A stretch of 64,000 nucleotides of DNA from NCBI RefSeq assembly GCF_038405225.1, contig NZ_CP151657.1, positions 1,488,001 to 1,552,000 of the forward strand, given 5' to 3'. A program made the position numbers and the translations under genes. Source of the DNA: Arthrobacter citreus (GTDB lineage: Bacteria; Actinomycetota; Actinomycetes; Actinomycetales; Micrococcaceae). Below are positions 4,955 through 62,369 of this stretch, piece by piece. Under the pieces are notes generated by a model. That model ran no database searches. It saw nothing but the letters and a program-made list of their open reading frames with translations, and was not told the DNA's origin. The first letter of the stretch is position 1; each line of letters begins with the position of its first letter.

Positions 4955-5019
4955 TCACGCACCAGTAGATTTACCGCAGGGGCGGGAAGCGAACGGCCCA
5001 ACCCTCGGTGAAACCACAC

Positions 5020-5053: not shown

Positions 5054-5116
5054 GTGCGTTCGGGCCCCTTGGGCCTTCCGGTTTATTCGGACACGCTGCA
5101 GGACGAACAACCCGCA

Positions 5117-5695: not shown

Positions 5696-5791
5696 AGTGA
5701 TAATCACCTCCAAATAGTGGGGTTGCTTACGCATCCATTTTCGAAGCTGATTCTTCGAGGTTTCTTAGCGTCCAGACCAGGTAAGGGTTTT

Positions 5792-7815: not shown

Positions 7816-7901
7816 GCCCGAAAGTCTATCCGCGGGCTAGCCGAAACACCCGGGAACGCAGGCCGCCGGGTGCTCCTCCACCGGAATCAGCTGGGGTGGG
7901 A

Positions 7902-9056
7902 CTACCGCTGTGTTGGCCCGGCCGGTGCGGGCCGACCCCGCAGCTGCCGGCCCACGTTCTTTGCCCAGGCCGCTCCGCCACCGGTCGTCAGCAAAATGAC
8001 GACGACGGCAACCAGGACGCCGATGGTGGTTTCAACCGCCCGGTCCACGGTCAGATCCCTTACCGGCTGCACTGAGACAAAGCCTGTCATCAGCAGCGCC
8101 ACCGGTGTCAGGAAGACCATGGCGAGCCCGTAGTGGCGGATGACGTACACCTCGCCGCCCAATTGCAGGGCTGCCAGGAGAACCGCCAGCTGCACCGGGC
8201 TCCAGTCCGCCTGCAGCAGGAGTGCGGACAACAGCACGCCGGCGTAGGTGCCCAGGATGAAGTGGCCGGCGCGGGCCGGCGCATGTGCGGCATCCGCTGC
8301 GGCAATGGGTGCACAGGCCGCGAGCATCGCCCAGTAGCTGTGGCCCGGCCCCAGCAGCAGGGCCAGGGAGCCGGCGGCAGCGACAGCTGCGACATACCGT
8401 CCGGAGTGGGCGAGGATGTGTGCCGCTCCCGGCGGAGGAGCCTGCTGGGGCAGCAACACCGGTGTATGGCGGCGGGCGTGGACCCGGCCGGCGATTCCCA
8501 GCAGAACCGCTGTCGCTGCGCTTCCGGATACGGCCAGCGCGGCTTCCGCGACGGACCCGGAGAACGGTGCGGCAGCGGTTGCGGTAAACGCAAAGATGTA
8601 GGTGAAGGGGCCGGCGGGGCGGATCCGCAGGTAGTCCGCCGCCACCGAGATCACCCCGGCCACAATGGTGGCGGCGACCACCAGTTCCCAGTCGCTGCGT
8701 CCTGCGACAGACATGGAGACTCCGGCCACCACGGTCAGGGACATCAGCACACCGGACTGGGTTTGGTGGCGCAGCCGCCGCCAGTGAGGTTCAGCGCGGC
8801 CGAAGACTCCGGTCAGCGACCCGAAGATGGCGCACATCGTCAGGTCCGTGCGGCCCAGCATAATCAGTACCAGGAGCGGAAGGAGCATCCCCGCGGCCAC
8901 CCGCACGGCGGGGAACCGGTGTCCGCGGCCCGCCGGGACTGCCAGGAAACCACGGAGGTCTTGCTTCACGGTTAACGAGCCTTTCACCGCGGCAGGAACA
9001 GGAGATTTGCCGCCTTTCCAGCCTATGAGTGAGGCCTCCGCCGGGATGGCAGCCAC
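7902..9056 (-). CDS. FUSC-family (aromatic acid exporter-like) integral membrane protein
   Basis: A protein of up to 384 residues with about ten hydrophobic segments in two blocks (residues about 50-190 and 225-360), separated by a basic cytoplasmic loop (GRVHARRHTPVLLPQ). The repeated pattern, with each half ending in a charged signature (RLRHQTQSG in the first, NVGRQLRGR in the second), fits the fusaric-acid-resistance (FUSC_2) superfamily, which are efflux or membrane-associated proteins of poorly known substrates. The first about 25 residues do not look membrane-like, so the true start may be an internal GTG at 8987 or 8969. The substrate is unknown. Confidence 0.65.
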   Translation of the reverse strand: MAAIPAEASLIGWKGGKSPVPAAVKGSLTVKQDLRGFLAVPAGRGHRFPAVRVAAGMLLPLLVLIMLGRTDLTMCAIFGSLTGVFGRAEPHWRRLRHQTQSGVLMSLTVVAGVSMSVAGRSDWELVVAATIVAGVISVAADYLRIRPAGPFTYIFAFTATAAAPFSGSVAEAALAVSGSAATAVLLGIAGRVHARRHTPVLLPQQAPPPGAAHILAHSGRYVAAVAAAGSLALLLGPGHSYWAMLAACAPIAAADAAHAPARAGHFILGTYAGVLLSALLLQADWSPVQLAVLLAALQLGGEVYVIRHYGLAMVFLTPVALLMTGFVSVQPVRDLTVDRAVETTIGVLVAVVVILLTTGGGAAWAKNVGRQLRGRPAPAGPTQR

Positions 9057-9134
9057 CCACGTGATTCATCTCCTACCGGTGCGGCACCCGTTCTGGCGCC
9101 GGGCCTTGGATCGGGGCGCCACATCCGGGCGGCG

Positions 9135-47787: not shown

Positions 47788-47829
47788 CTAGTGGTTGTCA
47801 AGGATGATGCGTGCGCAGATGCTGAAGGC

Positions 47830-50142
47830 ATGCCTGACTACCTGCACCCGCTGCGTTTCGGCAGCTTCATCACTCCCTCGGCGGCAACGCCCCAGCTGCC
47901 CGTGGACCGGGCCCTGCTCAGCGAGGAGCTGGGCCTGGACCTGGTGACCTTCCAGGACCACCCCTATCAGGCCCAGTTCCTAGACACCTGGACCCTGATT
48001 TCGGTGGTCGCCGCCCGGACCGAACGCATCCACGTCTCCGGAAATGTGCTGAACCTGCCGCTGCGCCAGCCCGCCGTGCTGGCCCGCTCCCTGGCGAGCT
48101 TGGATCTGCTCAGCGGCGGCCGGGTGGAACTCGGAATCGGCACGGGGGGATATTTTGACGCGATCGCCTCGATGGGCGGTCCGGTCCTGACGATCGGGGA
48201 AGCGGTCGGCGGGCTGGAGGATGCGCTGTCCATCATCCGAGGAATCTGGGACACCACGGATCCGGCGCCTCTGCATGTCAACGGGAAGTTCCATCATGTG
48301 GCCGGCGCGGCCAGGGGCCCGGCCCCGGCGCACAGCATCCCCATCTGGGTGGGAGCGTACAAGCCCCGGATGCAGGGCCTCATTGGCCGCAAGGGCGACG
48401 GCTGGTTGCCGAGCCTGCCCTGGATGAAACCGGGCGACGTCGAACGCGGCAACGAGGTGATCGACGCCGCCGCCCGCGAGGCGGGCCGCGATCCGCGGGA
48501 GATCACGCGCCTGATGAATGTGACCCCGCAGTACGACGCCGCCTCCCTGGCCGAACTGGCGACCGAGCACTGGGTGAGCGTGTTCATCGTGGCCACCGAC
48601 GATCCGCAGGAGCTCCGCCGGTTCGCAGAGGTCACGGCGCCGGGGATCCGAGCCCGGGTCGAGCGGGCCCGCGTTGAGCGTGCCCGCCGGCAGAATAGCT
48701 ACTCTCCGGCGGCTGGACCAGCTGCGTCCGGACCCGTGGCTGTGCCGGAGGCCCGGTCCTTTCGGGAGGACCCGATCCCCGCGGCACTCTCCCCGCGGGC
48801 CCTGCTCCCCGGCGACCCGGACTACACCCGCTATACCTCCAGTTACTTCCGCGGGGCACGACCCGGCGTCGTCCTGCGTCCCGTGACCACCGCCGAGGTG
48901 CAGGCGGCGGTGCGCTTCGCTGCCCGCCACCGCGACGTGCCGCTGGGACTTTTCAGCGGCGGACACGGCCTGTCCGGCCGGTCCCTCAACAACGGCGGCA
49001 TAGTCATCGCACTCGACGAACTGAACGGAATTACGGTGACCGGCGGAAACCGCGTCCAGGTGGGGCCGGGCGCCCGGTGGGGCGAGATCGCGCGGGCGCT
49101 GGCCCCGCACGGGCTGGCGGTCACCGCCGGCGACAGCGGCGGCGTCGGCGTCGGAGGCCTGGCGACGACGGCGGGAATCGGCTGGTTTGTCCGGGAACAC
49201 GGGCTTGCGATCGACCACCTCCGCTCCGTGGACATCGTCACCGCAGACGGCGAGCTGGTGCATGCGAGCGCGGACCGGAACAGCGACCTGTTCTGGGCCG
49301 TGCGCGGCGCCGGAGCCAACTTTGGCGCCGTCGTCTCGTTTGAATTCGAGGCACACCCGGTCTCCCCACAGGTCGGTTTCGCGATGTTTCTGTTCACCCC
49401 GGACGACGCCGCCTCTTTCCTGGAGGGGTGGGGCACCACCATCGAGGGATCGCACCCGTCCGTGACGGGATCCCTGATGATCGGCCCGGGCGGCCCCGGA
49501 TCGCCGGCCGTCATCCAGGCGATGATCGTGGTGGACTCCTCCGATCCGGACACCGTGGTGCAGCGGCTCGAGCCGTTGGCGGCTCTGGCGCCGCTGGCCA
49601 ATCAGTCGGTCACCATGGTCCCGTACGCAGCCCTGCTGGAGGTTCCGCCCGACGGCGAACAGCACGGCCAGGGTGAACCGCGCAGCCACTCCGGTTTTGT
49701 CCGGCACTTGAGCACCGACGTCGCCCGGGGCCTGGCGGACCTGCTCGCCTCGGGGTCACCGTTCCTGCTGAGCATCCGCTCGTCCGGGGGCGCAGCCGCC
49801 AACCACCCTGCCGATTCCACCGCATACGGGTGGCAGTCGGCGGAGTTCCTGATCTCCATTCTGGGCGGCCGCTCAGAGGAGGTCGGGCGGCGCTGGTCGA
49901 ACCTGGTCCCGCTGTTCGAAGGCCTGTATATCAGCTTTGAAACCGACACCGGCCCCGATGTCCTCGCCCGCGCCTTTCCTCCCGGGCATCTGCGGCGGCT
50001 GCGGGCGCTCAAGGCGGTCTGGGACCCGACCGGTCTGTTCCGCGACAACTTCTACATAGCCCCGGAACCGGACGTCGGAGACGCTTCCCCGGCTCAAGCC
50101 CGGTTGGCGCCTATCGGAACGGCGGATCAGTTGGGGGCATGA
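47830..50142 (+). CDS. Luciferase-like flavin monooxygenase fused to an FAD-linked (PCMH/BBE) oxidoreductase
   Basis: About 770 residues from the ATG at 47830 (an in-frame GTG at 47791 is possible). Residues about 5-280 are an LLM-type F420/FMN-dependent monooxygenase: LRFGSFITPSA, LDLVTFQDHPYQAQFLDTWTLI, VSGNVLNLPLRQPAVLARS, GRVELGIGTGGYFDAIASMG. A repeated linker (RARVERARVERARR) follows. Residues about 300-760 are an FAD-binding PCMH-type oxidase: FSGGHGLSGRSLNNGG with the His usually linked to FAD, GDSGGVGVGGLATTAGIGWFVRE, FWAVRGAGANFG, and the berberine-bridge C-terminus FRDNFYIAPEPD. The Cys used by doubly linked enzymes is absent. Natural substrate unknown. Both halves have intact cofactor motifs. 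Confidence 0.85.
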   Translation: MPDYLHPLRFGSFITPSAATPQLPVDRALLSEELGLDLVTFQDHPYQAQFLDTWTLISVVAARTERIHVSGNVLNLPLRQPAVLARSLASLDLLSGGRVELGIGTGGYFDAIASMGGPVLTIGEAVGGLEDALSIIRGIWDTTDPAPLHVNGKFHHVAGAARGPAPAHSIPIWVGAYKPRMQGLIGRKGDGWLPSLPWMKPGDVERGNEVIDAAAREAGRDPREITRLMNVTPQYDAASLAELATEHWVSVFIVATDDPQELRRFAEVTAPGIRARVERARVERARRQNSYSPAAGPAASGPVAVPEARSFREDPIPAALSPRALLPGDPDYTRYTSSYFRGARPGVVLRPVTTAEVQAAVRFAARHRDVPLGLFSGGHGLSGRSLNNGGIVIALDELNGITVTGGNRVQVGPGARWGEIARALAPHGLAVTAGDSGGVGVGGLATTAGIGWFVREHGLAIDHLRSVDIVTADGELVHASADRNSDLFWAVRGAGANFGAVVSFEFEAHPVSPQVGFAMFLFTPDDAASFLEGWGTTIEGSHPSVTGSLMIGPGGPGSPAVIQAMIVVDSSDPDTVVQRLEPLAALAPLANQSVTMVPYAALLEVPPDGEQHGQGEPRSHSGFVRHLSTDVARGLADLLASGSPFLLSIRSSGGAAANHPADSTAYGWQSAEFLISILGGRSEEVGRRWSNLVPLFEGLYISFETDTGPDVLARAFPPGHLRRLRALKAVWDPTGLFRDNFYIAPEPDVGDASPAQARLAPIGTADQLGA

Positions 50143-50301: not shown

Positions 50302-51276
50302 TCAGCGCTCCCCACCGGAATACTGCGCTTCAATATCCTTACTCCAGGCACGCGCGTACAGGCCAAGGGCTGCCTGCTCCCTGAAGGTGAAGCCCAGCCG
50401 GTTGAGCGACAGCTGGCTGGCCCCCGTAGCCAGCTGCTGCGCACTGCGACTGATGCGTTGCTTGTCCGCCCGGTACAAATAGTCATCAATGGCCCGTGCC
50501 CACCGCCGTCGCCAGACATCCACTGCCGGCTCTGAGGCTAGGGCGGCCATCACCCGATGTGCGGGTATCACCCGGGGTGCCATCCGGGCCATCATCGCCC
50601 TGCGTGCCTGCTCGGACCGCGGACCGGAAGATCCTGTGCAGGCCTGCAGATGAGCGTTCCAGTAGTAGTCCCAGCTTGTAGTTCTGCGGTCTGGCCAAAC
50701 AACGGACCGGGGTCCCCGCATCATTGCGTGGCCGCTGTCGAAGAGAAGCAGTGCAGCCAACATCGAGCGCGTGTTGAGGCTGGGAAAGCGGTTGACCGAC
50801 CACAGGGCCAGATCCGAGGATACTTTGGAAATCTCTGCTGCCAGTTCCAGGCCCTTTGGTCCACCGAACCGTGCGAGTGCGGCTTCCACCAACTCAGGTA
50901 CGGGTTCGCCCGGTGGTTGCGGATAAACGATGCCCGGGGCGCGGGAAATCTTCACGGCACCCAGCTTGGCAACGTTTTCGTCCGCCAGTGCGTGCGCCAA
51001 CGTCCATAGGTGATTAATGACGTCGTCGGTGGCACACAAGTGCAGGAGCACTGACGGATGGCCTGATTCCAGGTTCCGTGAGAACCGGAACCTTCCTCCC
51101 TCCGCGACCCCTAGTTGGGAAGTCAGAGGGGCAACAATATGACGGAGAATATCGTCGCCCACATCCTTGAGCTGAGGATCTATGATCCGAATGGACCATG
51201 TGCAGGAGTGCTGCTGCACAGGACGGATAGCTGCTCCTCGACGAACAGTGTTCGATTGCATCACCACTCTTTTCAT
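50302..51276 (-). CDS. Free-standing lantibiotic-dehydratase C-terminal-like (SpaB_C / thiopeptide-type) protein
   Basis: A protein of up to 324 residues (alternative ATG at 51261). Sequence pattern of the SpaB_C/'thiopeptide-type bacteriocin biosynthesis' domain: an N-terminal WSIRIIDPQ with a following RFSRNLESGHPSVLLHLC, then GIVYPQPPGEPVPELVEAALARFGG (the Y-P-E ... R-Y/F-G-G block), KVSSDLALWSV, and SQLSLNRLGFTFREQAALGLY (the H/S-x-x-x-NRLG-x-x-x-x-E block). In LanB dehydratases this domain eliminates glutamate from a precursor peptide; stand-alone copies exist in thiopeptide, PEARL and other RiPP pathways. No precursor peptide, dehydratase N-domain or transporter is seen nearby. Base composition is lower in GC than the neighbouring operon. 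Confidence 0.65.
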   Translation of the reverse strand: MKRVVMQSNTVRRGAAIRPVQQHSCTWSIRIIDPQLKDVGDDILRHIVAPLTSQLGVAEGGRFRFSRNLESGHPSVLLHLCATDDVINHLWTLAHALADENVAKLGAVKISRAPGIVYPQPPGEPVPELVEAALARFGGPKGLELAAEISKVSSDLALWSVNRFPSLNTRSMLAALLLFDSGHAMMRGPRSVVWPDRRTTSWDYYWNAHLQACTGSSGPRSEQARRAMMARMAPRVIPAHRVMAALASEPAVDVWRRRWARAIDDYLYRADKQRISRSAQQLATGASQLSLNRLGFTFREQAALGLYARAWSKDIEAQYSGGER

Positions 51277-51431: not shown

Positions 51432-52295
51432 TCAAGCTCCGGGACGCGGCTCCATGCCAGCGAGGGCGAGAACCCGCTCGGCGGCCCGCACCATGGCTAC
51501 ATCGATGAAGGTGCCGTCTTCCAGCACGAAGGCCCCGGTCCCGTCGAGGGCTGCGGCACTCACCCGGTCGACAATGCTCTGTGCCCGGGCCACCTCCGAG
51601 GCATCAGGGGTAAAGACCCGGCGGATGATATCGAGCTGACGGGGATGCACGGCGGTGCGGCCGGAGAAGCCGAGGGCGCGGCCGGCGCGGCAGCTCGCCT
51701 CCAATCCCGCGACATCGACGACGTCGGCATAGACCGCCATCAGTGGAGCAGGCAGGCTGGCAGCCGCAGCCGCATTAACGATGCGGCTGCGTGACCAAGC
51801 CAAACCCGCTTCCCCGCCGGACCCGGCAGGAACTCCCAGTTCAGCCCGAAGATCCGCCTCGCCGCTGGCGATCGTGGAAACTCCCGAGGAGGCGATCTCG
51901 AAGGCACGCTCAATCGACAGTGCCGATTCCAGCAGCGCATGCACCTGCCGTCCCGGCAGCGCGGCACGAAGAGCTGCGACATCGGCAGCTGACTGGGTCT
52001 TGGGCAACCGCACCCCGAACGCAGCGGGAAGCGCCGCAACCGCGGCGACGTCCGCCTCATGAACAGAGGATCCGGCCGCATTAACCCGCACCTGCACGGC
52101 GGGAGCGGCCTCGCCGCACGCCTCCCACAACGCCGCGAAGTCTGTCAGGGCGGCACGGGCATCCGCCTTGCGCGAAGCTGTGACGGCATCTTCCAGATCC
52201 ACGATGACCGCATCCGCCCCGGCCCGCAGCGCCTTCTCGAAGCGCTCGGGCCGGTCAGCGGGAGCGTACAGCGCCACCACGATGGGCCGGCTCAT
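51432..52295 (-). CDS. HpcH/HpaI aldolase/citrate lyase beta-subunit (CitE)-like lyase
   Basis: A 287-residue TIM-barrel lyase: ADAVIVDLEDAV with metal-binding acid residues, VQVRVNAAGSSVHEADVAAV, FGVRLPKTQS, ALLESALSIERAFEIAS, GEADLRAELG and FSGRTAVHPRQLDIIRRVF. This is the CitE/L-malyl-CoA/citramalyl-CoA lyase group, which cleaves 3-hydroxyacyl-CoA thioesters. It is the last gene of the LacI-controlled operon and overlaps the CoA-transferase gene by four bases, so the CoA ester that enzyme makes is the likely substrate. No citrate lyase alpha or acyl-carrier subunit is present. Confidence 0.85.
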   Translation of the reverse strand: MSRPIVVALYAPADRPERFEKALRAGADAVIVDLEDAVTASRKADARAALTDFAALWEACGEAAPAVQVRVNAAGSSVHEADVAAVAALPAAFGVRLPKTQSAADVAALRAALPGRQVHALLESALSIERAFEIASSGVSTIASGEADLRAELGVPAGSGGEAGLAWSRSRIVNAAAAASLPAPLMAVYADVVDVAGLEASCRAGRALGFSGRTAVHPRQLDIIRRVFTPDASEVARAQSIVDRVSAAALDGTGAFVLEDGTFIDVAMVRAAERVLALAGMEPRPGA

Positions 52296-53479
52296 CCGAT
52301 GCTTCCATCGTCATGCAGCGCCGCTAACTCGTCGGGCGAGTAACCCAGCTCGGTCAGCACGGCATCCGTGTCCGCGCCATGCGCCCGCCCGGTGAACGCG
52401 ATCGTCGCTTCATCCCTGGACATCCGGAACAGCGGTCCCTGCATGGCCATGTCACCAAGGTCTGCGTCCTTTATCCGGTGGATGGTCCCCAAAGCATTGA
52501 ACTGAGGATCGGCAACAATGTCCGACGGGTCATAGATCGGTGCCACCGCGGCTTCCGCAGCCTCGAAGGCGGCGACGACCTCCTCCCGGGAGTGCCGGGC
52601 GATCCATGTGCCCACGGCGTCGTCGAGGAGGTCGGCGTGCTCGGCGCGGGCTGCTCCGCTGGCGAACCATTCCTCCTCGGCAAGTTCGGGACGCCCGACC
52701 AGGGCAACCACGCGCTCAGCAATGGACTGCGCACTCGTGGACACTGCCACCCAGGAACCGTCAGCGGTGCGGTACGCGTTGCGGGGGGCATTATTGACCG
52801 AGCGGTTGCCGGTGCGCGGCTGCACGGTGCCCAGTTGATCCCAGCGCGTGATCTGCGGGCCCAGCATGGCCAGGATCGGCTCGATGATGGCCACGTCAAC
52901 TTCCTGGCCTTTGCCGTCCTTGTCGCGGGCGTGCAGGGCAACCATGATCGCGTAGGCGGTTGCCAGCGACGCGACGCCGTCCGCCAAGCCAAACGGCGGA
53001 AGCGTCGGCGGCCCGTCCGGCTCGCCGGTGGACGATGCAAAGCCGCTCATCGCTTCGGCGAGCGTGCCGAACCCCGGCCGGTTCTTATACGGTCCGATTT
53101 GCCCGAACCCGGTAACGCGGGCGAGGACAAGCCCGGGGTTCTGCGCGGACAGCGCGTTGTAGTCCAGCCCCCAGCGTTCCAGCGTGCCCGGACGGAAGTT
53201 CTCGATCACGACATCCGCGCTCCGGGCAAGGCGGATAAACGCATCGCGCCCGCCGGCCGTATGCAGGTCGATGGCCACCGTGCGCTTATTGCGGCCGAGC
53301 GTCTTCCACCAAAGGTTCTGTCCGTCCTTGCTCGGCCCGTGGCCCCGCGCAGGATCCGGCCGGTTGGGATGTTCAACCTTGACGACGTCGGCGCCCATGT
53401 CCCCCAGATGCATTGCTGCCATCGGGCCCGCGAAGAGCGTCGAGGCGTCCACGACGCGCAGGCCGTTGAGCGGGCTCAT
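52292..53479 (-). CDS. CaiB/BaiF-family (class III) CoA transferase
   Basis: A 395-residue class III CoA transferase: LRVVDASTLFAGPMAAMHLGDMGADVVKVEHPN, NKRTVAIDLHTAGGRDAFIRL, DVVIENFRPGTLERWGLDY, and the segment carrying the catalytic Asp, SSTGEPDGPPTLPPFGLADG. It moves CoA between organic acids through an aspartyl-CoA anhydride. It overlaps its neighbours by four bases on both sides. Together with the CitE-like lyase it suggests activation of a hydroxy acid to its CoA ester and cleavage. The acid is unknown. Confidence 0.9.
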   Translation of the reverse strand: MSPLNGLRVVDASTLFAGPMAAMHLGDMGADVVKVEHPNRPDPARGHGPSKDGQNLWWKTLGRNKRTVAIDLHTAGGRDAFIRLARSADVVIENFRPGTLERWGLDYNALSAQNPGLVLARVTGFGQIGPYKNRPGFGTLAEAMSGFASSTGEPDGPPTLPPFGLADGVASLATAYAIMVALHARDKDGKGQEVDVAIIEPILAMLGPQITRWDQLGTVQPRTGNRSVNNAPRNAYRTADGSWVAVSTSAQSIAERVVALVGRPELAEEEWFASGAARAEHADLLDDAVGTWIARHSREEVVAAFEAAEAAVAPIYDPSDIVADPQFNALGTIHRIKDADLGDMAMQGPLFRMSRDEATIAFTGRAHGADTDAVLTELGYSPDELAALHDDGSIG

Positions 53480-55473
53480 GCGGGTCCCTCCCCTTCAGGG
53501 GCCGGGTCATCGAGGGCATCGTCGTTGTGCTGCTCGGTATTGTGCTGCTCGACGCAGATACGGAACCCGACTGAGCTGGACGCGTCCTGGCCGAGTCCGG
53601 GCAAGAGCAGCTTGGCGCTGAAGTCCGGAGACTTCACACCGCCGTCGAAGTACCAGTCCGAGCCCTCGCTGCGGTGTGCACTGCCGCCCTTGAGCATGAC
53701 AAAGCGGGTACGGCCGTCCGAATGCTCGGACTCCGTCCAGTTCCACACCTCCGGTGTTCGGCGCAGAAACCCGGGACGGGCTGCGGCCAGCTGCCATTCA
53801 TCCTCGGTGGGGAGACGTCCGCCGGCCCAGGCTGCGTATTCGCGGGCCCGGGCGAATGTCACGTTGGTAGCGGGACGCTCCGGGTCGCGGGCATCCGTAT
53901 GCTTTCCGATCGCATCGAGGAAGCGGGCGTACTCGGCCTCGCTCACCTCTGCGGCGGCAACAGAAACCGGCTGCGGGAGAACAACGTTCCGGTCCAGCGT
54001 GCGCTGGTCGTGAAGCCGGGGAGGAAGCGGCTTCCACTCGTCCACGTAGGGCGCTCCGTCATACATGCCTGTCTCGCGCATCCGGTAGCGCACGGTCAGG
54101 GTGTATTCGCCGGCCGCAACAGCGACGGTGGGGATAGCCCGGCTGGATGCCGGAGCAACGGGGCCGTTCCAATGCGGCGCGCTCAGGCGTCGTGCCGGGC
54201 GGTGCCGGAAGGCCGTGTCATGCCGGGTTGGTTGCCCGGCGAGAGCAGCGTGTACGACGTCGAGCTGATCGGGCACCGGGGCACCGGCACCGATGTGCGC
54301 CGCGGCGGCTATTCCGCCGGCGGGCACGGTGATCGAGTTCGCGGTGTCACCGGCGTGCAGCGGCCGCCAGCCGCTGCCGGGCAGGCGGTAGTGGGCGTCC
54401 TCATCCGAGGTGTTTGCCAGGAGCAGCAGGGTGACACCGTCGAGTTCGAAAGCCGACCCCACCACGGGGCCGTCGGTTACCGAGAGCGGTGTCCACTCCC
54501 CCTCCACGAGCCAGCGGTGGAAGCCGCGCTGAACGGGAAGCATGCGGCGGAGCGTCGCGGCATCCCGGTCATTCCAGCCGACCCAGGCTCCGAAAACCAC
54601 CTCCCACACCATGACTCCAACACCGTTGAGCCAGGCCGAGCGCAGCTCTTCGGCATGGTCCCGGTGCCAGCGGCGGATGTGGTGCTGCATGTGCCGGCGC
54701 TCAAACCACCGTGCGCGGAGGACGCCGGGCAGTTCCGAGTCGGCGAACCACTGTGCCCAAGACAACGTGTGGTCTGCGATCCGCTCGGTGGCGAGCTTCG
54801 ATTCGCCTTCGAGGCCGATGCCGGGGCGCGCCGCATCCAGCGCTGTGACCAGTTCGGGATCCGCCTTTTTCAGCGTGTCGAGGAAGACTCCGTCCGCACC
54901 CAGGCGGCGCACTGCCGCCGCGAGCTCATGGGTGTCGTCCCCGCTGCGGCGCGTTCCCGTATCCCAGGGGTTGTAGTCCAGGAACACGGCGACGCCGGCA
55001 GCGCGCAGCGCCGCTGCAACTTCGGCCAAACCCGGGACGTCGTAAAAGTCCCACTGGTTGCGGTCGTCAATACCAATGACCGGATAGGCGTGCCACAGGA
55101 CGACGCCGTCAAGCCCGCCGAAACGCTCGTGCGCGTCAGCGAGAAACCGCTCGGGGGTGAAACGCTGCGCCTCAAAATCGAAGAACAGCTCGTCCCACAA
55201 CCAGACCTGCGCCACGGTAAAGCAACGGCTTGCCCAGGCGGAGGCGTCGTCGTCGTACCGGGTGGGCTCGCCATGGCGCTTTCGCGCACCTTCCCGCCAC
55301 ACACTGAGCTGGGCGCGCCAGCGGCCAAGATCCCCGGGATCGGCAGGCGCCGCGAAAATCTTGGCGTCATCAAGCGCGGCCGCCGCTTCCCCGCTCATCA
55401 GATCCAGCTCGAGCGGCACCCGGGTGGGGAGATCGAGTTCACGGGGCTGCAGGGGGTTGAAACCGCCGCTCAT
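53476..55473 (-). CDS. TIM-barrel glycoside-hydrolase-like protein with C-terminal FGE/SUMF1-type domain
   Basis: A 665-residue protein without signal peptide. Residues about 80-350 look like a TIM-barrel hydrolase: DGVVLWHAYPVIGIDDRNQWDFYDVPG, VAVFLDYNPWDTGTRR, LGADGVFLDTLKKAD and IGLEGESKLATERI (acidic residues after strands). Residues about 355-480 are beta-rich. Residues about 500-645 match the formylglycine-generating-enzyme (SUMF1/FGE) fold: VSEAEYARFLDAIG, PATNVTFARAREYAAWAGGRLPTEDEWQLAA, VWNWTESE, MLKGGSAHR and SSSVGFRI. The two cysteines used by true FGEs are not evident, so a ligand-binding or other use of the fold is likely. In the operon it lies between an ADP-ribosylglycohydrolase-type gene and the CoA transferase, overlapping both. 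Confidence 0.7.
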   Translation of the reverse strand: MSGGFNPLQPRELDLPTRVPLELDLMSGEAAAALDDAKIFAAPADPGDLGRWRAQLSVWREGARKRHGEPTRYDDDASAWASRCFTVAQVWLWDELFFDFEAQRFTPERFLADAHERFGGLDGVVLWHAYPVIGIDDRNQWDFYDVPGLAEVAAALRAAGVAVFLDYNPWDTGTRRSGDDTHELAAAVRRLGADGVFLDTLKKADPELVTALDAARPGIGLEGESKLATERIADHTLSWAQWFADSELPGVLRARWFERRHMQHHIRRWHRDHAEELRSAWLNGVGVMVWEVVFGAWVGWNDRDAATLRRMLPVQRGFHRWLVEGEWTPLSVTDGPVVGSAFELDGVTLLLLANTSDEDAHYRLPGSGWRPLHAGDTANSITVPAGGIAAAAHIGAGAPVPDQLDVVHAALAGQPTRHDTAFRHRPARRLSAPHWNGPVAPASSRAIPTVAVAAGEYTLTVRYRMRETGMYDGAPYVDEWKPLPPRLHDQRTLDRNVVLPQPVSVAAAEVSEAEYARFLDAIGKHTDARDPERPATNVTFARAREYAAWAGGRLPTEDEWQLAAARPGFLRRTPEVWNWTESEHSDGRTRFVMLKGGSAHRSEGSDWYFDGGVKSPDFSAKLLLPGLGQDASSSVGFRICVEQHNTEQHNDDALDDPAPEGEGPA

Positions 55474-56858
55474 GATGTTCCCTCCGACAATCTGAAGGTA
55501 CGTTCTGCGAGGTCACGGATGGACCGCTCGGCCCCGCCCGGGAGCGAGGTCTTGATGGAGTCTTTGAGCGGATCAGTCCAGTCCGCACCGATCCCCTCAG
55601 CACCCAGAAGCCCGCCGATGACGGATCCGATGGTCGCGCCGACGGAGTCGGTGTCCCATCCGCCTGCGACGCCGAGCGCGATGGCGGCACCGAAGTCCCC
55701 GCCGTAGGCCTGGATGGCGCACGCCGTCAGTGCCGCGTTGTTGAGGGTGTGAACCCAATGCATCCCCTTGAACTCCGCATGCAGCACGTCGAGTGCCTCG
55801 GGAGTGGTCAGCGAGCCTTCGGCGAGGGCCTTGCCGGTCTGCCGGCCGAGACGTACGGCGGCAGCCAGGCGTGAATCCGGCGGCACGACCGTGTCCGCTG
55901 CGTCCAGCACGGCATCGGCGGAGGTGGCGGTGAGGGATGCTGAGCACAGGGCAGCGGCCCACATTTCCCCGTAGATCCCGTTGCGGGTGTGGCTTAACCG
56001 CGCGTCGGTCCATGCCGACGCGGCAGCCGCGCGCACGTCCCCCGGATGAGCCCAGCCATGCACGTCGGCCCGGATGAGAGCGCCGATCCATTCCCGGAAC
56101 GGATTGTGGTGCCGCGCGGTATCCGGGACGGTCCGGGCATCAAGAATGTTCCGGTACGCCGCTCGTTCAGCGGTGAAGACCCGGCCCGCCGGCAGCGCCG
56201 CCAGCCAGGCTTCGGCAAAGTGCTCTGTGGAGAGACTGCGGCCGTGGGTCTCCATCAGCTCGAGGGTGAGGATGGGGAAGTTCAGGTCGTCATCCTCGGG
56301 CATTCCGTCGATGTTCTCCACCAGCGAGGTGGGCGCGGAGCGGCGGTTCCAGGGCCAGCGCTCCGCTATGTCCTGCGGAAGCCCCACCGCGGTGAAGTAG
56401 GTGCGGATCGGCCAGTTGCCGGTTGCCCGGGCAATCTCTTCGATGCCCGCACGGGGAATCTTCTCCACGGGCTTGCCGAGCAGGCATCCCGCCGCCCGGC
56501 CAAGCCATGCCCCGTGCATCCGTTCGAAGTCCACGGACGTCCCTATTCCCGGAGCGGCCGGCGCGGTACCCGGCCTACCCGGCGGGAGCAGGGCGACGAT
56601 GTCCTCCCACTCGTCCGGTTCCTCGGCGCTTGGGATCTGCAGGGTCTGCAGCTCATCGAGCACCGTGCGTGCGAGGGAACGGATCTCCCGGCTTGCGGGT
56701 TCAGCGCTCGCCCCCGATGGAGCGAGTTGCGTCGAGCCGCCGGCTTCCGCCCACCTGCACTCAATCGGGGCAAGTTCGTTTTCAGCCACACCCTGTTCAC
56801 GGAGAGCTGCCAGCTCAGCGGCGACCAAGTCCTCCGGCTGGGACCATGTCAGCCTCAC
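55470..56858 (-). CDS. ADP-ribosylglycohydrolase-family protein 2 (462 aa)
   Basis: The core (residues about 115-440) is a DraG/ARH-type all-helical hydrolase: MHGAWLGRAAGCLLGKPVEKI, EDDDLNFPILTLELMETHG (first acidic cluster), then GGWDTDSVGATIGSVIGGLLGAEGI with the D-x-D-S metal-binding motif. About 110 N-terminal residues ahead of the core are helical and not part of the family. The family removes ADP-ribose from proteins or hydrolyses related N-/O-glycosidic bonds with two Mg2+ ions; many members act on unknown small substrates. It is next to a second family member, with 4-base overlaps on both sides. Confidence 0.85.
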   Translation of the reverse strand: MRLTWSQPEDLVAAELAALREQGVAENELAPIECRWAEAGGSTQLAPSGASAEPASREIRSLARTVLDELQTLQIPSAEEPDEWEDIVALLPPGRPGTAPAAPGIGTSVDFERMHGAWLGRAAGCLLGKPVEKIPRAGIEEIARATGNWPIRTYFTAVGLPQDIAERWPWNRRSAPTSLVENIDGMPEDDDLNFPILTLELMETHGRSLSTEHFAEAWLAALPAGRVFTAERAAYRNILDARTVPDTARHHNPFREWIGALIRADVHGWAHPGDVRAAAASAWTDARLSHTRNGIYGEMWAAALCSASLTATSADAVLDAADTVVPPDSRLAAAVRLGRQTGKALAEGSLTTPEALDVLHAEFKGMHWVHTLNNAALTACAIQAYGGDFGAAIALGVAGGWDTDSVGATIGSVIGGLLGAEGIGADWTDPLKDSIKTSLPGGAERSIRDLAERTFRLSEGTS

Positions 56859-58024
56859 TTCGCGTATACCGGGCTCAGCAGCGATTCCAGGGCTGCGGCT
56901 CGTTGTGTGGCGCGATCGGCATCCGCCCGGGCGATATCACGCACCACCTCCGTCATCGCATCCACCACGGAATCGAGATCGAGGCGGCTTGCGGCCGTGA
57001 CATCAGTGACCCAGTCCGTGGGCACTGCCTCAATACCGTGGAGACCACCGCAGATGGCGCCGGCCATCGTGGCGATCGAGTCGGCGTCGCGCCCGTAATT
57101 GACGGCGTCGAGCACCGAGGAGCGAAGGTCGCCGTTGCGGGCGACGACGAACCCGAGCGCCGCAGGCAGCTCTTCGATCGATTTGGTGCGTGACGGCAGG
57201 CGGGCATCCATCGCCGGGGCGCGGTACTGCTCCCCCACCGTGTCGAACGGTGCAACAGCGGCGCGCACCACCCGGGCAATATCCCGCGGGTCATCCGATC
57301 CGCCGTCGGCAAGGAACGCATCGACGGCGTCAAAAACGGCACGGATGGCTGCGGCGGTCCCGTCGTGGGCGACATCCAGCACGGCCTGCCGCATGTCGTC
57401 GACGGTTGCGCCGGGAGCGGCGGATGCTGCCACTGCAGCCGCGAATACGCCTGCGGCCTCACGTCCGTAGGACGATTGGTGAGCTCCGGCGATGTCGATG
57501 GCTTCTGCATAGGCACCCTGCGGGTCACCGATGTGCACGAGTCCGACCGGCGCCATATACATGGAGGCTCCGCAGTTGACGATGTTTCCCACACCGGCTT
57601 CCCGCGGGTCAGCGTGACCATAGTGCAGTTTCGCGACGATCCACTTTTCGGCGAGGAAGACGCGCTGCAGGATCAGGGCATGGTCCTCGAGTTCGGGGAC
57701 CCAGCGCCGTTCACCGATCATCAGCGGCACCAGATCGCTGGCGACGTCGTAGGCATCGAGATGCCGGCGCTGCTTGGTGTAGACCTCCACGAGAGCGTGG
57801 GTCATGAGCGTATCGTCGGTCACGTGCCCGTCACCCTTGTGGTAGGGCGCAATCGGCCGCGCGGTTTTCCAATCGGCGAGGAAGGGTCCCACGATGCCCT
57901 CGACCCGGCCGCCGTGGCGCTCTTCGATCTGCTCGGGGGTCCAGCCCTCCGTGGCACCGCCCAAGGCGTCTCCCACTGCGGCGCCTGTCAGTACTCCGGC
58001 TACTTTGTTCTGCAACACGTTCAT
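56855..58024 (-). CDS. ADP-ribosylglycohydrolase-family protein 1 (389 aa)
   Basis: The start is the ATG at 58024 (MNVLQNKVAGVLTGAAVGDALGGATEGW), where the family fold begins; upstream codons are open by chance. Motifs: GAAVGDALGGATEGWTPEQI, HVTDDTLMTHALVEVY (first metal cluster DDT) and NYGRDADSIATMAGAICGGLHGIE (D-x-D-S). Both clusters are complete, so activity is expected. It differs in length and N-terminus from its neighbour, so the two are not a recent duplication and may act on different parts of one substrate. It follows the sugar-binding protein gene by 69 bases in the same operon. Confidence 0.88.
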   Translation of the reverse strand: MNVLQNKVAGVLTGAAVGDALGGATEGWTPEQIEERHGGRVEGIVGPFLADWKTARPIAPYHKGDGHVTDDTLMTHALVEVYTKQRRHLDAYDVASDLVPLMIGERRWVPELEDHALILQRVFLAEKWIVAKLHYGHADPREAGVGNIVNCGASMYMAPVGLVHIGDPQGAYAEAIDIAGAHQSSYGREAAGVFAAAVAASAAPGATVDDMRQAVLDVAHDGTAAAIRAVFDAVDAFLADGGSDDPRDIARVVRAAVAPFDTVGEQYRAPAMDARLPSRTKSIEELPAALGFVVARNGDLRSSVLDAVNYGRDADSIATMAGAICGGLHGIEAVPTDWVTDVTAASRLDLDSVVDAMTEVVRDIARADADRATQRAAALESLLSPVYAK

Positions 58025-58093
58025 TCTCACTCCTTGTTTACCTCCGAAAATGACGACGGCGGGGGCGAACCGGCGGCTCACCCCCGCGCGTCA

Positions 58094-59389
58094 TCAACCG
58101 GCGATGTCAGTCCAGCCGGTGGAAAGTTGGTTAGCCAGCTCGTCGCTGGTGATCTGATCAGCCAGGTACTGCTGGAAGGCCGGCGTGGCGATGGTGTCTT
58201 TCCACTCCGTGTACTTTTCGACCTTGAGGAACGGCGGTCCCTGCAGCCCTTCGCCTGATGCCAGCACCTGTTCCCAGGCGGGGTTGTCCGCGGCCAGTGT
58301 TTCCACCTCGGTCCTGGCTGAGGAGGACGCCGGGATCAGTGCGTCGGCGTAGGCGATGGAGGCCAGGTTCTCAGCGCTCATGAAGAAGTTGAGGAAATCA
58401 GCCGACTCGTCCACGTACTCGGAATCAACGTTCACCGAGTAGGTCTGCGGGTTTGCGGCCTGGATCGCGCCGGCTGAACCCTCAAGCGGAGGCAGGGCCA
58501 CCCAGTTGAGCCCTTCGGGGGCGTCGTTGGCAATGTTCGTCGCCTGGAAGGATCCCTGCACGGTCATTGCGACCTTGCCTCCGTAGAACGAGGCGAGTAC
58601 GTCCGACCCGGACTGTGTCAGTGACGTGGGTTCGATCGACTTGTCGGTGTAGGCCATTTCATGGATCAGTTCGGGCACCGCCAGCTCGGAGTCGCCAACA
58701 TCGATCGACGCGTCAGTGCCTTCTCCGTCAAAGAAGCCACCGTCAAAACCGAGCGAGAGGCTCATCATCGTCGCCGTCGGCGATCCAAGACCCCATCCGA
58801 TGCCGAAATTGCCTTCGGTGGTTGTTGCCTTCGCGATGGTCTGCAACTCTTCCCACGTCATCGTGTCGCCGGTGGGAACTTCAACCCCGGCGGCTTCGAG
58901 GAGGTCAGCATTGGCGAACACCATGTAGGACTGCAGAGTGGACGGATAGGCGATGATCTCTCCGTCCTGTGTGACAGAGTCCCAAATCCCTTCGGAGATG
59001 TCCTGCTTCAGGTCCTCGTCGATGAGGTCGGTCAGGTCAGCGAGGTAGCCGTCCGCCGCGAAGGAGGCAATGGAACTCGCCTCATAGTGGATGATGTCCG
59101 GTGCCGTTCCACCGGTGAACTGGGTGATGAGTTTGTCGAAGGTCCCGTCCCATCCGGCTTGGACAATCTTTACCTGAACGTCTTCGTTCTCCGTGTTCCA
59201 CTGATCGACTATGGATTTCACGGCAGCCTGGGTGGTTGGCTGGTCGGACAGCGACTGGAACTGGAGGGTTACGGGGCCGCCGTCGGCGTTCTCCGATTCA
59301 TTGCTGGCACTGCCCTGCTGGCAACCGCTCAGGGCGAGGATGGTCACGCCCGCGAACGCGACGGCGCCAATGCCTCGTATTCTCTTCAT
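58094..59389 (-). CDS. ABC transporter substrate-binding lipoprotein (sugar type, family 1)
   Basis: A 431-residue lipoprotein: signal peptide with lipobox LSGC (Cys near residue 23), then the extracytoplasmic sugar-binding fold of the MalE/UgpB class: VTLQFQSLSDQPTTQAAVKSI, WDGTFDKLITQFTGGTAPDIIHYEASS, GIWDSVTQDGEIIAYPSTLQSYMVFAN (typical pattern), SFYGGKVAMTVQGSF. It captures a solute outside the cell and hands it to the two permeases encoded upstream. Ligand not predictable; neighbours imply a glycoside or sugar derivative. No ATPase gene is in the operon, so a shared MsiK-like ATPase, as in other actinobacteria, is expected. Confidence 0.92.
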   Translation of the reverse strand: MKRIRGIGAVAFAGVTILALSGCQQGSASNESENADGGPVTLQFQSLSDQPTTQAAVKSIVDQWNTENEDVQVKIVQAGWDGTFDKLITQFTGGTAPDIIHYEASSIASFAADGYLADLTDLIDEDLKQDISEGIWDSVTQDGEIIAYPSTLQSYMVFANADLLEAAGVEVPTGDTMTWEELQTIAKATTTEGNFGIGWGLGSPTATMMSLSLGFDGGFFDGEGTDASIDVGDSELAVPELIHEMAYTDKSIEPTSLTQSGSDVLASFYGGKVAMTVQGSFQATNIANDAPEGLNWVALPPLEGSAGAIQAANPQTYSVNVDSEYVDESADFLNFFMSAENLASIAYADALIPASSSARTEVETLAADNPAWEQVLASGEGLQGPPFLKVEKYTEWKDTIATPAFQQYLADQITSDELANQLSTGWTDIAG

Positions 59390-59439
59390 GATGCTCGCTT
59401 TCTTGTTCTGTTGTGGTCGATCTTTCTTAGGGGGCAGGG

Positions 59440-60279
59440 TCAGCCTTTGACTGCTCCGGCGAGCATTCCGCCGGTCAGCTTCTTCTGCAGGATGGTGAAG
59501 ATGATGAGCGACGGAATGGTCGCGAGAATGGCACCTGCTGCCAGCGGGCCCAGCTGGGTTTGCCCTTCCGCGCCCAGGAACGAACGCAGGGCGATGGGAA
59601 GTGTGTACAGCTCCGGGCTCTGCAGCAGGACAAGGGCGAGGAAGAACTCATTCCAGGCCGAGACAAAGGTAAACATGGCCGTTGCCACCAGCCCCGGTGC
59701 GAGCAGCGGAAGGATGATCCTCCGCAGAATCGTGATGCGCGAAGCCCCATCCATTTCACCGGCCTCCTCCAGTTCCGCCGGAATAGCGGACACGTAACCC
59801 TGCAGCATCCAGAGCGTGAACGGCAGGGTGAAGGTGACGTACACGAGGGTCAGTCCGAGTAGGGTGTCGTTGAGATTGATCGTGCGCAGCACCAGGAACA
59901 ACGGGATGATGATGAGGATCGACGGGAAGACCTGGCTGGTCAGTATCCACACCGTGCCGGCAGCGCGGAGCCGCCCCTTGAGACGGGCGAGGGCGTAGGC
60001 CATCGGCATCGACAGCAGCACGGTGATCACCATCGTTGCCAGGGATACCAGCACCGAATTGCCGGCGGCGGTCAAAAGGTTCTGGCGCTCGAGGGCGGAA
60101 CCGTAGTTGCTGAAGTCCCAGGTGGCCGGCAGCAGGTTGACGGCGAGCGAGTTCAGCTCACCCGATGATTTGAACGACGCCGACAGCAGCCACAGCAGCG
60201 GGAACCCAAGGAACAGGAGGAATGCGGTAAGGGCGACGTACATGAGCGCCGTCGCGTACCAGGGACGCCTGGTGATCAT
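59440..60279 (-). CDS. ABC sugar transporter permease (MalG type)
   Basis: A 279-residue permease with six membrane segments. The cytoplasmic EAA loop is EEAGEMDGASRITILRRIILPLLAPGL, and ASFKSSGEL before it is usual for MalG-like members. The start overlaps the stop of the other permease gene by four bases. It moves the substrate delivered by the lipoprotein across the membrane. Confidence 0.93.
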   Translation of the reverse strand: MITRRPWYATALMYVALTAFLLFLGFPLLWLLSASFKSSGELNSLAVNLLPATWDFSNYGSALERQNLLTAAGNSVLVSLATMVITVLLSMPMAYALARLKGRLRAAGTVWILTSQVFPSILIIIPLFLVLRTINLNDTLLGLTLVYVTFTLPFTLWMLQGYVSAIPAELEEAGEMDGASRITILRRIILPLLAPGLVATAMFTFVSAWNEFFLALVLLQSPELYTLPIALRSFLGAEGQTQLGPLAAGAILATIPSLIIFTILQKKLTGGMLAGAVKG

Positions 60280-61229
60280 GAGCGTGCTCCCTTTGTCTGA
60301 CGGAACTGGTTGACAAGGTACAGAGACAGAACCAGCAGGATCGCGATGACGAGCACGTCACCCATTGCCGAGGCGTATCCGATTTCGCGGTTGCGGAAGG
60401 CCTCCAAGTAGGTGAACAGCGGCGGTATCATCGTCCGGCCGCCGGGGCCGCCTTCAGTGAGGACATAGATGAGGCCAAAGGAGTTGAACTGCCAGATGAA
60501 GTCCAGCGCGGTGACAGCGAAAACAACCGGGCGGAGGGCCGGGAGGGTGATGTGCCAGAACCGGCGGAACGCTCCGGCGCCGTCGACTGCAGCTGCCTCA
60601 TGCTGCTCCGCGGAAATGGACTGCATACCGGCCAGCAGCAGGACAGTGGTCTGCGGAATCCCCGCCCAGACTCCCACCACAATGACGGCGGGCAGGGCGG
60701 TGGAAAAGTCGCCAAGCCAGTTGACGCCCGGAATGCCCACCGCTTCGAGCATGCCGTTCAGCGGACCTGAATTGGGGTTGTAAATCATCCGCCACACGAT
60801 CGCGATGACCACGGGCGGCATCGCCCAGGGGATCAATGCCAGCACCCGGGTCAGGCCCTTTAGCCGCAAATCGCTGTTGAGCAGCAGTGCCAGTCCCATG
60901 GCGCACACAAGGGTGAGAAGTGCGACGGAACCGGCCCAGACGATGCCGATGCCGAAAGAGCCCCAGAAACGGTGGTCGCCGAAGAGTTCAATGAAGTTTC
61001 CGAAACCGATGAAGTTGATCTCCGCGTTCCGCTTCAGCGTGGCATCGGTGAAGCCGAGGGCGACTCCGCTGACCAGCGGGATAACGGAAAAGATAATGAT
61101 CGGCAGGAGCGCGGGGATCACCAGCGTGATGGCTTCCCGCCGTTGCGCGCGAACGCGGTGGCCTACGCGTCTCACTGGACGCGGCGCCTCCTTCACATCG
61201 CGTGGAGTGCTTGTGGCTGCGGTGCTCAT
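60276..61229 (-). CDS. ABC sugar transporter permease (MalF type)
   Basis: A 317-residue permease with six membrane segments after a basic cytoplasmic N-terminus (RRVGHRVRAQRREAITLVI). The EAA loop is QHEAAAVDGAGAFRRFWHITLPALRPV, ending with the family's NRLP-like TLPALRP. QFNSFGLIYVLTEGGPGGRT is typical of UgpA/MalF. It overlaps the LacI gene upstream and the partner permease downstream by four bases each. Confidence 0.93.
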   Translation of the reverse strand: MSTAATSTPRDVKEAPRPVRRVGHRVRAQRREAITLVIPALLPIIIFSVIPLVSGVALGFTDATLKRNAEINFIGFGNFIELFGDHRFWGSFGIGIVWAGSVALLTLVCAMGLALLLNSDLRLKGLTRVLALIPWAMPPVVIAIVWRMIYNPNSGPLNGMLEAVGIPGVNWLGDFSTALPAVIVVGVWAGIPQTTVLLLAGMQSISAEQHEAAAVDGAGAFRRFWHITLPALRPVVFAVTALDFIWQFNSFGLIYVLTEGGPGGRTMIPPLFTYLEAFRNREIGYASAMGDVLVIAILLVLSLYLVNQFRQTKGARS

Positions 61230-62296
61230 CCGGCTTCCCTCTCCTCATTGAGATCGGTGTGTTCAGTGTGGTCACGCGTAGGAGACGAGGCAGGGTCCGG
61301 CCTGCGTGCGAGGGAAGAGCCGCGAACAACCAGCGAGGGCGCAACCGCAATGGTGTGCGCGGGACGCGCAGGGTCCGTGATGCGTTGGAGCAGCAGCTCC
61401 GCTGCGGCGCGGCCGCGCTCGTCGGCGCCGAGGTCCACGCTCGTGAGGCCCGGCCGGACGACTCCGGCCAGCTCCGTGTTATCGATACCGGTGACGGCGA
61501 TGTCGCCCGGAACGGACAGCCCAAAATCTTCGGCGGCCCGGATCACGCCGATTCCGATCAGATCATTGGCGGCGACGATGGCATCGGGGCGGAATTCACC
61601 GGACAGCACCCGGCGGGCCGCAGCGTAGCCGGCCCCGATCGTGAAGTCCTCAGCCTCGACGCTCCTCGCCAGGATTTCCGGGTGGGCAGCGACTGCTGCG
61701 GCGAATCCGTCCCGCCGGAAAGCACCAGGGGTGGTGTCGCTGGGTCCGTTCACAAAAGTGACGTCACGCCGGCCCTCGGCAGCAAGATGGTCAACAACAA
61801 GACGCATGGCAGTGCGCGAATCCGCACGCACGTTGTCAATACTCTGGCTGTCCGGCAAATGTCCCAGGACGACGACCGGCACCGGCGTCTTCGCAAGCAC
61901 CGCAAGGAGCTCATCCGTGACGCGAAGCGGCGACAGAATCATGCCGTCCACATACCCCCGGCTCAGGTCACGCACCACGTCGACTGAGGAGGACAGGGTA
62001 CCCATCGAGGACAGCACCAGCCGGTAGCCGGATGCCGAGACGACCCGCTCCACCGCGGTCATCATCTCGACGTAGACCGGGTTGCCAATGTCGGCGACGG
62101 CGTAGACGAGTTGGTTTGTTCGGCCCCGCTTCAGGGACTGTGCCGTCGCATCGGCGACGTAGCCGAGTTCCTCGGCGGCGTGCTGCACTTTGGCAACCGT
62201 TTGGGGGCTCGCTATGAGCCCGTTGAGGGCCCGTGAAGCAGACGCCACAGAAACGCCGGCGTGTGCCGCAACCTGAGTGATAGTGACCCGAGCCAA
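61226..62296 (-). CDS. LacI-family transcriptional regulator of the ABC/ARH operon
   Basis: The start is the TTG at 62296, with AAGGAG five bases upstream; it gives LARVTITQVAAHAGVSVASAS at the N-terminus, the right length for LacI (about 356 residues). The helix-turn-helix is followed by the hinge LNGLIASPQTVAKVQHAAEELGYVADATAQSLKRG and a periplasmic-binding-type core (VYVEMMTAVERVVSASGYRLVLSSM, GVIRAAEDFGLSVPGDIAVTGIDN). It overlaps the first permease gene by four bases, so repressor and target genes are in one operon. The perfect palindrome just upstream is its likely operator, and the ligand is probably the imported substrate. Confidence 0.92.
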   Translation of the reverse strand: MARVTITQVAAHAGVSVASASRALNGLIASPQTVAKVQHAAEELGYVADATAQSLKRGRTNQLVYAVADIGNPVYVEMMTAVERVVSASGYRLVLSSMGTLSSSVDVVRDLSRGYVDGMILSPLRVTDELLAVLAKTPVPVVVLGHLPDSQSIDNVRADSRTAMRLVVDHLAAEGRRDVTFVNGPSDTTPGAFRRDGFAAAVAAHPEILARSVEAEDFTIGAGYAAARRVLSGEFRPDAIVAANDLIGIGVIRAAEDFGLSVPGDIAVTGIDNTELAGVVRPGLTSVDLGADERGRAAAELLLQRITDPARPAHTIAVAPSLVVRGSSLARRPDPASSPTRDHTEHTDLNEEREAG

Positions 62297-62312
62297 CGCT
62301 CTCCTTCGAGTG

Positions 62313-62328
62313 CTGTAAACGTTTACAG
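62313..62328 (-). promoter_or_regulatory. Perfect 16-bp LacI-type operator
   Basis: CTGTAAACGTTTACAG is fully self-complementary and has the central CG and TAAACGTTTA core typical of LacI-family operators. It lies 17-32 bases upstream of the repressor start and just downstream of the expected transcription start (about 62334), placing it to block elongation or promoter clearance. Confidence 0.93.
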
Positions 62329-62340
62329 TGGATGCACGAG

Positions 62341-62369
62341 ACGATTCCATTGATGAGCTGCTGTGTCAA
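62341..62369 (-). promoter_or_regulatory. Promoter of the LacI/ABC/ARH operon
   Basis: On the minus strand: consensus -35 TTGACA (62369-62364), exactly 17 bases, then AATCGT (62346-62341) as -10. Transcription would start near 62334, immediately before the palindromic operator. Confidence 0.75.

Follow-up and report, generated by a model that had tools for sequence, protein, structure and literature searches.

A LacI-controlled operon of Actinomycetota that may place ADP-ribosylglycohydrolase-family enzymes in the catabolism of an imported glycoconjugate

The locus

The stretch of DNA considered here, hereafter the window, covers 64,000 nucleotides of Arthrobacter citreus (contig NZ_CP151657.1, positions 1,488,001 to 1,552,000), an organism whose genome is a single contig of 3.88 Mb. 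A check of its open reading frames and of their profile matches finds nine consecutive genes on the minus strand, from that of a LacI-family repressor, starting at TTG 62296, to that of a CitE-like lyase, last of the series at 51432. Between these two come, in this order, permease 1, permease 2 and the solute-binding protein (SBP) of an ABC importer, two enzymes of the ADP-ribosylglycohydrolase (ARH) family named ARH1 and ARH2, a two-domain protein that we call TIM/FGE, and a coenzyme A (CoA) transferase, CaiB. Six of the eight junctions are overlaps of 4 bases; a gap of 12 bases separates SBP from ARH1, and one of 50 bases separates permease 2 from SBP. The initial annotation of this DNA, which had announced nine minus-strand genes mostly overlapping by 4 bases, thus described the layout correctly.

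Sugars are the usual cargo of such importers. The SBP (58094 to 59389, minus strand, as are all features of the operon) is a sugar-type binding protein of the SBP_bac_1 family (PF01547, 114.4 bits), while permease 1 (60276 to 61229) is of the MalF/UgpA type and permease 2 (59440 to 60279) of the MalG type, matching PF00528 (BPD_transp_1) with 83.3 and 80.6 bits, respectively. With models of narrower scope permease 1 scores 117.4 bits for UgpA, under the cut-off of 335, and permease 2 reaches 134.8 bits for GlcU and 107.5 for MalG, both under their cut-offs. No ABC ATPase gene lies inside the operon, the rest of the genome not having been searched for one.

Conservation of the gene set

Relatives of TIM/FGE were used to survey named genomes, and the best 80 of 290 stretches are the basis of every count per 80 given below. 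The TIM/FGE nearest to that of the window, among those listed, is the one of Arthrobacter gandavensis, 96% identical in the best segment. All 80 loci belong to Actinomycetota, judged by their titles, and in 71 of them the complete set is present in order, 60 times with an additional gene coding for a ribokinase-like enzyme and 11 times without it. Conserved co-occurrence beyond close relatives, which the initial annotation proposed to look for, is therefore observed. Taken one by one, CaiB and CitE are each present in 79 loci, ARH2 in 77, SBP in 75, ARH1 and both permeases in 74, LacI in 73 and the kinase in 63. Six of the nine incomplete loci are on short contigs or at contig ends (L061, L079, L086, L110, L122 and L132); as for the others, L083 is devoid of LacI, ARH1, CaiB and CitE, LacI is displaced in L121, and L126 has two matches to ARH2. 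All parts are matched in L124, even though its TIM/FGE frame is broken after 279 residues.

A broader search, with TIM/FGE as the query against 394 genomes of the class, gives matches in 138 of them at E <= 0.001. All but 20 of these genomes (own genome included) have weak matches, with E >= 3.8e-8, which, among the matches listed, fall in the FGE domain. In the 20 others the matches are long, and none is weaker than E 9.6e-102. CaiB adjoins TIM/FGE in 18 of the 19 long-match genomes other than our own; the exception, L022, holds a copy of about 40% identity which (L050/L022) stands beside a GH3 gene, without ARH genes. The distribution of the operon is patchy, and its hosts, going by the genus names in the locus titles, are mostly genera of soil and plant matter.

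A fixed accessory gene that would define the substrate was also considered. The commonest extra gene cluster, at most 306 bases from the end of the operon and on the same strand in 10 of 11 cases, is present in only 11 of the 80 loci, and the idea was rejected as the cluster is too patchy. The one copy scanned (L067, 14077 to 16632) is an esterase-type protein (PF00756) whose C-terminus reads like a cell-wall sorting signal; an esterase of this type may release substrate outside the cell.

The repressor and its probable operator

The LacI-family repressor (61226 to 62296; PF00356, 30.8 bits; PF13377, 119 bits) has RbsR as its best NCBIfam model, at 184 bits, below the cut-off of 382. It most likely starts at TTG 62296, preceded by AAGGAG, rather than at ATG 62350, because the latter would place the operator inside the gene. 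This probable LacI operator, recognised by its symmetry and its conservation, is the perfect 16-bp palindrome CTGTAAACGTTTACAG (62313 to 62328). It is more than a product of chance. Its inner 14 bp have one exact copy in the A. citreus genome and one further site with a single mismatch, and a backward control gave 0 sites. The single-mismatch site (C1:3464087, in L135), a candidate for a second member of the regulon, was set aside, since it fronts neither flanking gene: on one side it follows the end of a transglycosylase/LysM (Rpf-like) frame, and on the other it faces the end of a minus-strand frame. A TTGACA (62364 to 62369), as a possible -35 element, is weak by itself, this hexamer being rarer in the window than expected (9 copies against 17.4), and it was dropped as promoter evidence in its own right. 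Accordingly, of the promoter with a palindrome that the initial annotation had described, both motifs are there, with the palindrome perfect and downstream of TTGACA, but the hexamer alone proves nothing.

The regions upstream of LacI in 69 loci and in the window, 70 in all, were surveyed for four variants of the palindrome with at most one mismatch. Such a site is present in 67 of them, and two or more sites in 46; base shuffling, over 100 rounds, leaves 0.0 regions per 70. L102, L121 and L125 are the regions without a variant, L102 having a perfect but diverged palindrome. In ten whole genomes (4.4 to 11.2 Mb), picked from loci showing the exact form TGGAAACGTTTCCA, that form is found once or twice per genome and, in all ten, solely before this operon. 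This answers the regulon prediction that the initial annotation had asked for, and the separate regulons that would have dissociated importer from enzymes are not what is found: with one operator before LacI, both are placed under a common predicted control site.

The ARH enzymes

ARH1 (56855 to 58081, or from an internal ATG at 58024) and ARH2 (55470 to 56858) match PF03747 (ADP_ribosyl_GH) with 158.1 and 137.2 bits, well over the cut-off of 26.2, and both are members of the family. ARH2 is a divergent one, with an N-terminal extension of about 110 residues, the match beginning at residue 116. Their acidic columns, which we take to be the metal ligands of two Asp-rich half-sites, are kept almost without exception: TDDT in 74/74 copies and DxDS in 73-74/74 for ARH1, EDDD and DTDS in 74/74 for ARH2. 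A PDB sequence search with ARH2 gave no match at E 0.01; its predicted model (pLDDT 91.5) has MJ1187, ARH3 and DraG as top Foldseek matches. Neither protein reaches the NCBIfam equivalog cut-offs of Tri1 (337.05; 48.9 bits for ARH1, 15.1 for ARH2) or dinitrogenase DraG (490; 47.5 and 19.6). The genome holds a third ARH gene (G000:C1:674655-675590; L001, L053; 205.5 bits), which lies apart, beside a gene of the aquaporin family.

ARH2 used as a query has matches in 73 of the 394 genomes, and 20 of the corresponding loci were opened. Thirteen are of high identity (49-56%) and have no TIM/FGE nearby; each codes for four ARH proteins, ARHa and ARHb being added to ARH1 and ARH2, with CaiB and CitE in 12 of them and the kinase in 10. 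The seven others are paralogous (34-44%). Three of these (L197, L200 and L201) have a kinase match, so that the association of ARH with kinase extends beyond this operon; the ARH-kinase cluster of L200 further includes a sugar-type importer and a gene that matches GH13 in Pfam. At L201 (487 to 7722) the neighbours of the ARH2 paralogue are a ribokinase-like gene, the genes of an ABC importer of dipeptide type and one of the DHDPS family, which is perhaps a related pathway with a different acid step.

Six of the thirteen four-ARH loci, all from one genus (g37), show neither LacI nor importer in the stretch opened, and in these the order is ARHa-ARHb-ARH1-ARH2. A VIT1 gene is beside ARHa in each of the three g37 loci that were scanned; the single locus scanned for glutamate synthase has its gene next in line. 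We take g37 to be Streptomyces and gltB to be SCO2026 of Streptomyces coelicolor; counting from this gene in the g37 loci that were opened, we infer that the array corresponds exactly to SCO2028-SCO2031. These proteins have been read in another way. In the sections available, all four are listed as DraG/ARH homologues among putative ADP-ribosyl hydrolases in one paper (PMC9411070), which describes eight S. coelicolor homologues of ARH as uncharacterised, and SCO2028-SCO2030 are so listed in another (PMC5087735). It might then be that the ARH proteins of the operon reverse the ADP-ribosylation of proteins or nucleic acids, the operon coupling this reversal to metabolism, as is supposed for the Streptomyces paralogues. 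The family name and the fold agree with this, as does the want of an adjoining importer in the six g37 loci. We nevertheless hold it for the least probable of the alternatives weighed here, and a quite improbable one: in 71 of the 80 loci the ARH genes share their operon with CaiB, CitE and a sugar importer, in 63 with the kinase, CaiB and CitE adjoin ARH genes again in 12 of 13 further loci, and SCO2028 and SCO2030 had no detectable activity on a synthetic uracil-ADP-ribose (U-ADPr) probe, a single substrate, in the part available of that study (PMC13036486).

A kinase in most relatives

The additional gene of the relatives, inserted between ARH2 and TIM/FGE in the 63 loci, codes for a PfkB kinase. 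All 63 match the ribokinase model TIGR02152 at E <= 1e-20, and ribokinase models are the two most widely matched among them. The residues N10, D12, E138 and D246, which presumably bind ribose, are invariant. That the ARH enzymes serve sugar catabolism, as the initial annotation suggested in taking them for glycosidases of small molecules, is supported by this ribokinase-like gene, since it accompanies them both in these loci and in 10 of the 13 loci without TIM/FGE.

The same pairing, together with a LacI protein nearest to RbsR among NCBIfam models, would also suit the scavenging of ordinary nucleosides or of NAD breakdown products, with the ARH proteins as nucleosidases feeding the ribokinase. 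Escherichia coli yegTUV does pair a predicted nucleoside symporter, an ARH protein and a sugar kinase, as described in the part available of PMC10819704. Such scavenging seems improbable to us, if a little less so than the removal of ADP-ribose, as it leaves CaiB, CitE and the GH13-like enzyme described below unexplained and sits poorly with an importer of a type usually devoted to sugars.

TIM/FGE

The predicted structure of TIM/FGE (53476 to 55473) consists of a GH13-like barrel (residues about 43-396) followed by an FGE-fold domain (about 432-643). The barrel is of amylase type, with an Asp on strand 4 and a Glu on strand 5, as the GH13 family requires. In a Pfam scan at E <= 0.1 FGE-sulfatase was the sole match and there was none to alpha-amylase, and residue 197 is Phe in 80/80 copies and not the Arg that, by our reckoning, GH13 enzymes have at this place, two before the nucleophile. 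Formylglycine-generating enzyme (FGE) has a conserved pair of active-site Cys; no such pair appears in the alignment, and an active FGE was rejected. On its model the protein, to which the initial annotation had given no role, resembles a glycosidase of GH13 type joined to an FGE fold, and it fits none of the known families fully. Its absence from the 13 opened four-ARH loci makes it seem an accessory step.

The acid half

CaiB (52292 to 53479), a CaiB/BaiF class III CoA-transferase (PF02515, CoA_transf_3, 395.4 bits), keeps in 80/80 copies Asp167, which we take to be the catalytic Asp of these transferases. CitE (51432 to 52295; PF03328, HpcH_HpaI, 103.8 bits) keeps R70, E123 and D148 in 78/78, presumably the functional Arg, Glu and Asp of CitE/HpcH lyases. 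The best NCBIfam match of CitE is RipC_Ccl, with 136.8 bits, below the cut-off of 375, and its score with citE itself, 120.6 bits, is below 443.4.

In a tree of CaiB, a branch with support 100/98 sets 35 rows from ARH contexts (window included), together with L217 and L225, apart from the rest. L203 (genome G315), the sole one of the 13 four-ARH loci that has no CaiB and CitE, has a CaiB-CitE pair elsewhere in its genome, which is L225, and this CaiB falls within the ARH-locus group. Another row from an ARH context, L231, falls outside that group on a long branch. That locus (1086 to 10311, in the 1.3-Mb genome G333) is a compact version with LacI, importer, ARH1, ARHa, ARHb, CaiB and CitE, and no match to ARH2, kinase or TIM/FGE was found within its 15-kb stretch. 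The examination of 20 loci, L231 among them, covered related CaiB genes of 54-67% identity. Ten of these loci have a member of one gene cluster, and the four members scanned all belong to MmgE/PrpD, to which 2-methylcitrate dehydratase and cis-aconitate decarboxylase are also assigned; other neighbours include importer genes nearest LivM/UrtC and an allantoinase-like gene, all under the cut-offs. Because of the RipC/Ccl match of the lyase and of these MmgE/PrpD neighbours, the likeliest substrate of CaiB and CitE would be a citrate- or alkylmalate-type acid.

Downstream of CitE, a frame of 324 residues (50302 to 51276, minus strand) has a weak match to a lantibiotic dehydratase C-terminal domain (21.6 bits, cut-off 24.4). 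Beyond it, on the plus strand (47791 to 50142), a single frame fuses a luciferase-like monooxygenase (PF00296, 152 bits) to an FAD-binding domain (PF01565, 98 bits), an arrangement unfamiliar to us.

What the operon may do

The explanation that we favour, by inclination rather than with assurance, is that of a catabolic operon under LacI repression that serves an imported glycoconjugate, in which ARH furanosidases and a kinase deal with the sugar and CaiB and CitE cleave the acid. Gene set, order, shared operator and conserved active-site residues are read in the sequences, and from them we infer every reaction and the class of the substrate. The SBP and the two permeases would import the glycoconjugate, probably with an ABC ATPase encoded elsewhere, and the GH13-like TIM/FGE enzyme would probably strip an outer glycosyl group. 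ARH1 and ARH2 would then act on this small molecule by cleaving at least one pentofuranosyl bond, most likely a ribosyl one; the molecule is perhaps a pentofuranoside and, more narrowly, a riboside. Malate glycosides, HMG esters, apiosides and methanopterin-type ribosides were considered as candidate ligands. The ribokinase-like enzyme, whose gene most relatives have in the operon and which this genome would encode elsewhere, would phosphorylate the sugar. The hydroxy acid so released, probably similar to malate or citrate, would receive CoA from CaiB, and the CitE-like lyase would split the CoA ester into acetyl-CoA and an oxo acid. The simplest order of events is import, outer glycosidase, ARH furanosidase, kinase, CoA transfer and C-C cleavage.

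Several observations weigh against this proposal. LacI and the importer are found in only seven of the 13 loci without TIM/FGE, within the stretch opened, so that the link of the enzymes with this importer is not a constant one. TIM/FGE, ARH2 and CaiB are absent, at the thresholds used, from all five other sample genomes of the same family. The MmgE/PrpD loci form neighbouring groups of the CaiB tree, not the ARH group itself, and CaiB and CitE could act on a side product. As for the sugar, 'riboside' is a suggestion drawn from kinase similarity. The window operon has no kinase gene, and the best kinase homologue elsewhere in the genome, at 246.7 bits, is under the ribokinase cut-off of 299.65. 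None of the 63 kinases of the named loci seems to reach that cut-off either: the first listed scores 242.9 bits, and their best E-value with TIGR02152 is 9.3e-83, when the kinase of L040, outside the 63, needs 8.1e-92 for 307.7 bits, above the cut-off. The ligand might thus be a furanoside of another sugar (apiose, arabinofuranose or similar), its kinase not being a ribokinase in vivo; PfkB kinases vary in sugar use, and the soil and plant-matter genera of the hosts would fit. To our mind this is unlikely, though less so than the scavenging of nucleosides, given that ribokinase models dominate the matches of all 63 kinases and that the presumed ribose-binding residues are invariant.

Returning to the catabolism of a glycoconjugate, the initial annotation had spoken of a complete route. 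Wide conservation, a single operator and the sugar-catabolic role of the ARH enzymes all speak for a catabolic operon; completeness is not established, with no ABC ATPase in the operon and no kinase gene in this copy. A bolder and decidedly tentative version, which we find rather doubtful as a whole, is that of an undescribed actinobacterial pathway for the degradation of pentofuranosides, ribosides or others, in which the hydroxy acid is of malate or citrate type, with ARH proteins of the SCO2028-SCO2031 type as its glycosidases and TIM/FGE as the founder of a GH13-related family. If the four S. coelicolor proteins did belong to a sugar-conjugate pathway, counts of actinobacterial 'ADP-ribosyl hydrolases' would overstate ADP-ribosylation signalling, and enzymes usually assumed to remove ADP-ribose tags would gain a metabolic job. 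The operon is tractable, as it has one regulator, one operator and one binding protein whose ligand could be sought by screening, and as 71 of the 80 loci keep the set whole.

Comparison with known systems

As far as a literature search shows, the operon is new as a combination, while its parts, TIM/FGE excepted, are known families; the search, whose coverage excluded most subscription papers and all preprints, found no report of this gene set, though it listed papers on staphylococcal cassettes in which ADP-ribosylglycohydrolase and ribokinase are both named. Actinobacterial sugar importer operons under LacI control, as we know them, have the same pattern of LacI, SBP, two permeases and hydrolases without an ATPase in the operon, but ARH enzymes and CoA-dependent cleavage of an acid are unusual there. 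The degradation of itaconate and citramalate likewise associates a CoA-transferase with a CitE-like lyase, and RipC_Ccl is the best match of the window CitE; however, that match is far under its cut-off, and the operon has no hydratase gene and has a sugar-type importer. The array of SCO2028-SCO2031, by way of g37, shares ARH1 and ARH2 with the operon, whereas its members are published as uncharacterised ADP-ribosyl hydrolase homologues, the adjoining kinase, CaiB and CitE being unmentioned in the sections available (PMC9411070; PMC5087735). Finally, E. coli yegTUV, without a clear known function, also gathers a predicted transporter, an ARH protein and a sugar kinase in one repressed operon. 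It differs, in the part available of its description, by a symporter of the MFS type instead of an ABC importer, by a GntR-type regulator and by the absence of CaiB, CitE and a GH13-like enzyme, and its authors link it to glycogen (PMC10819704).

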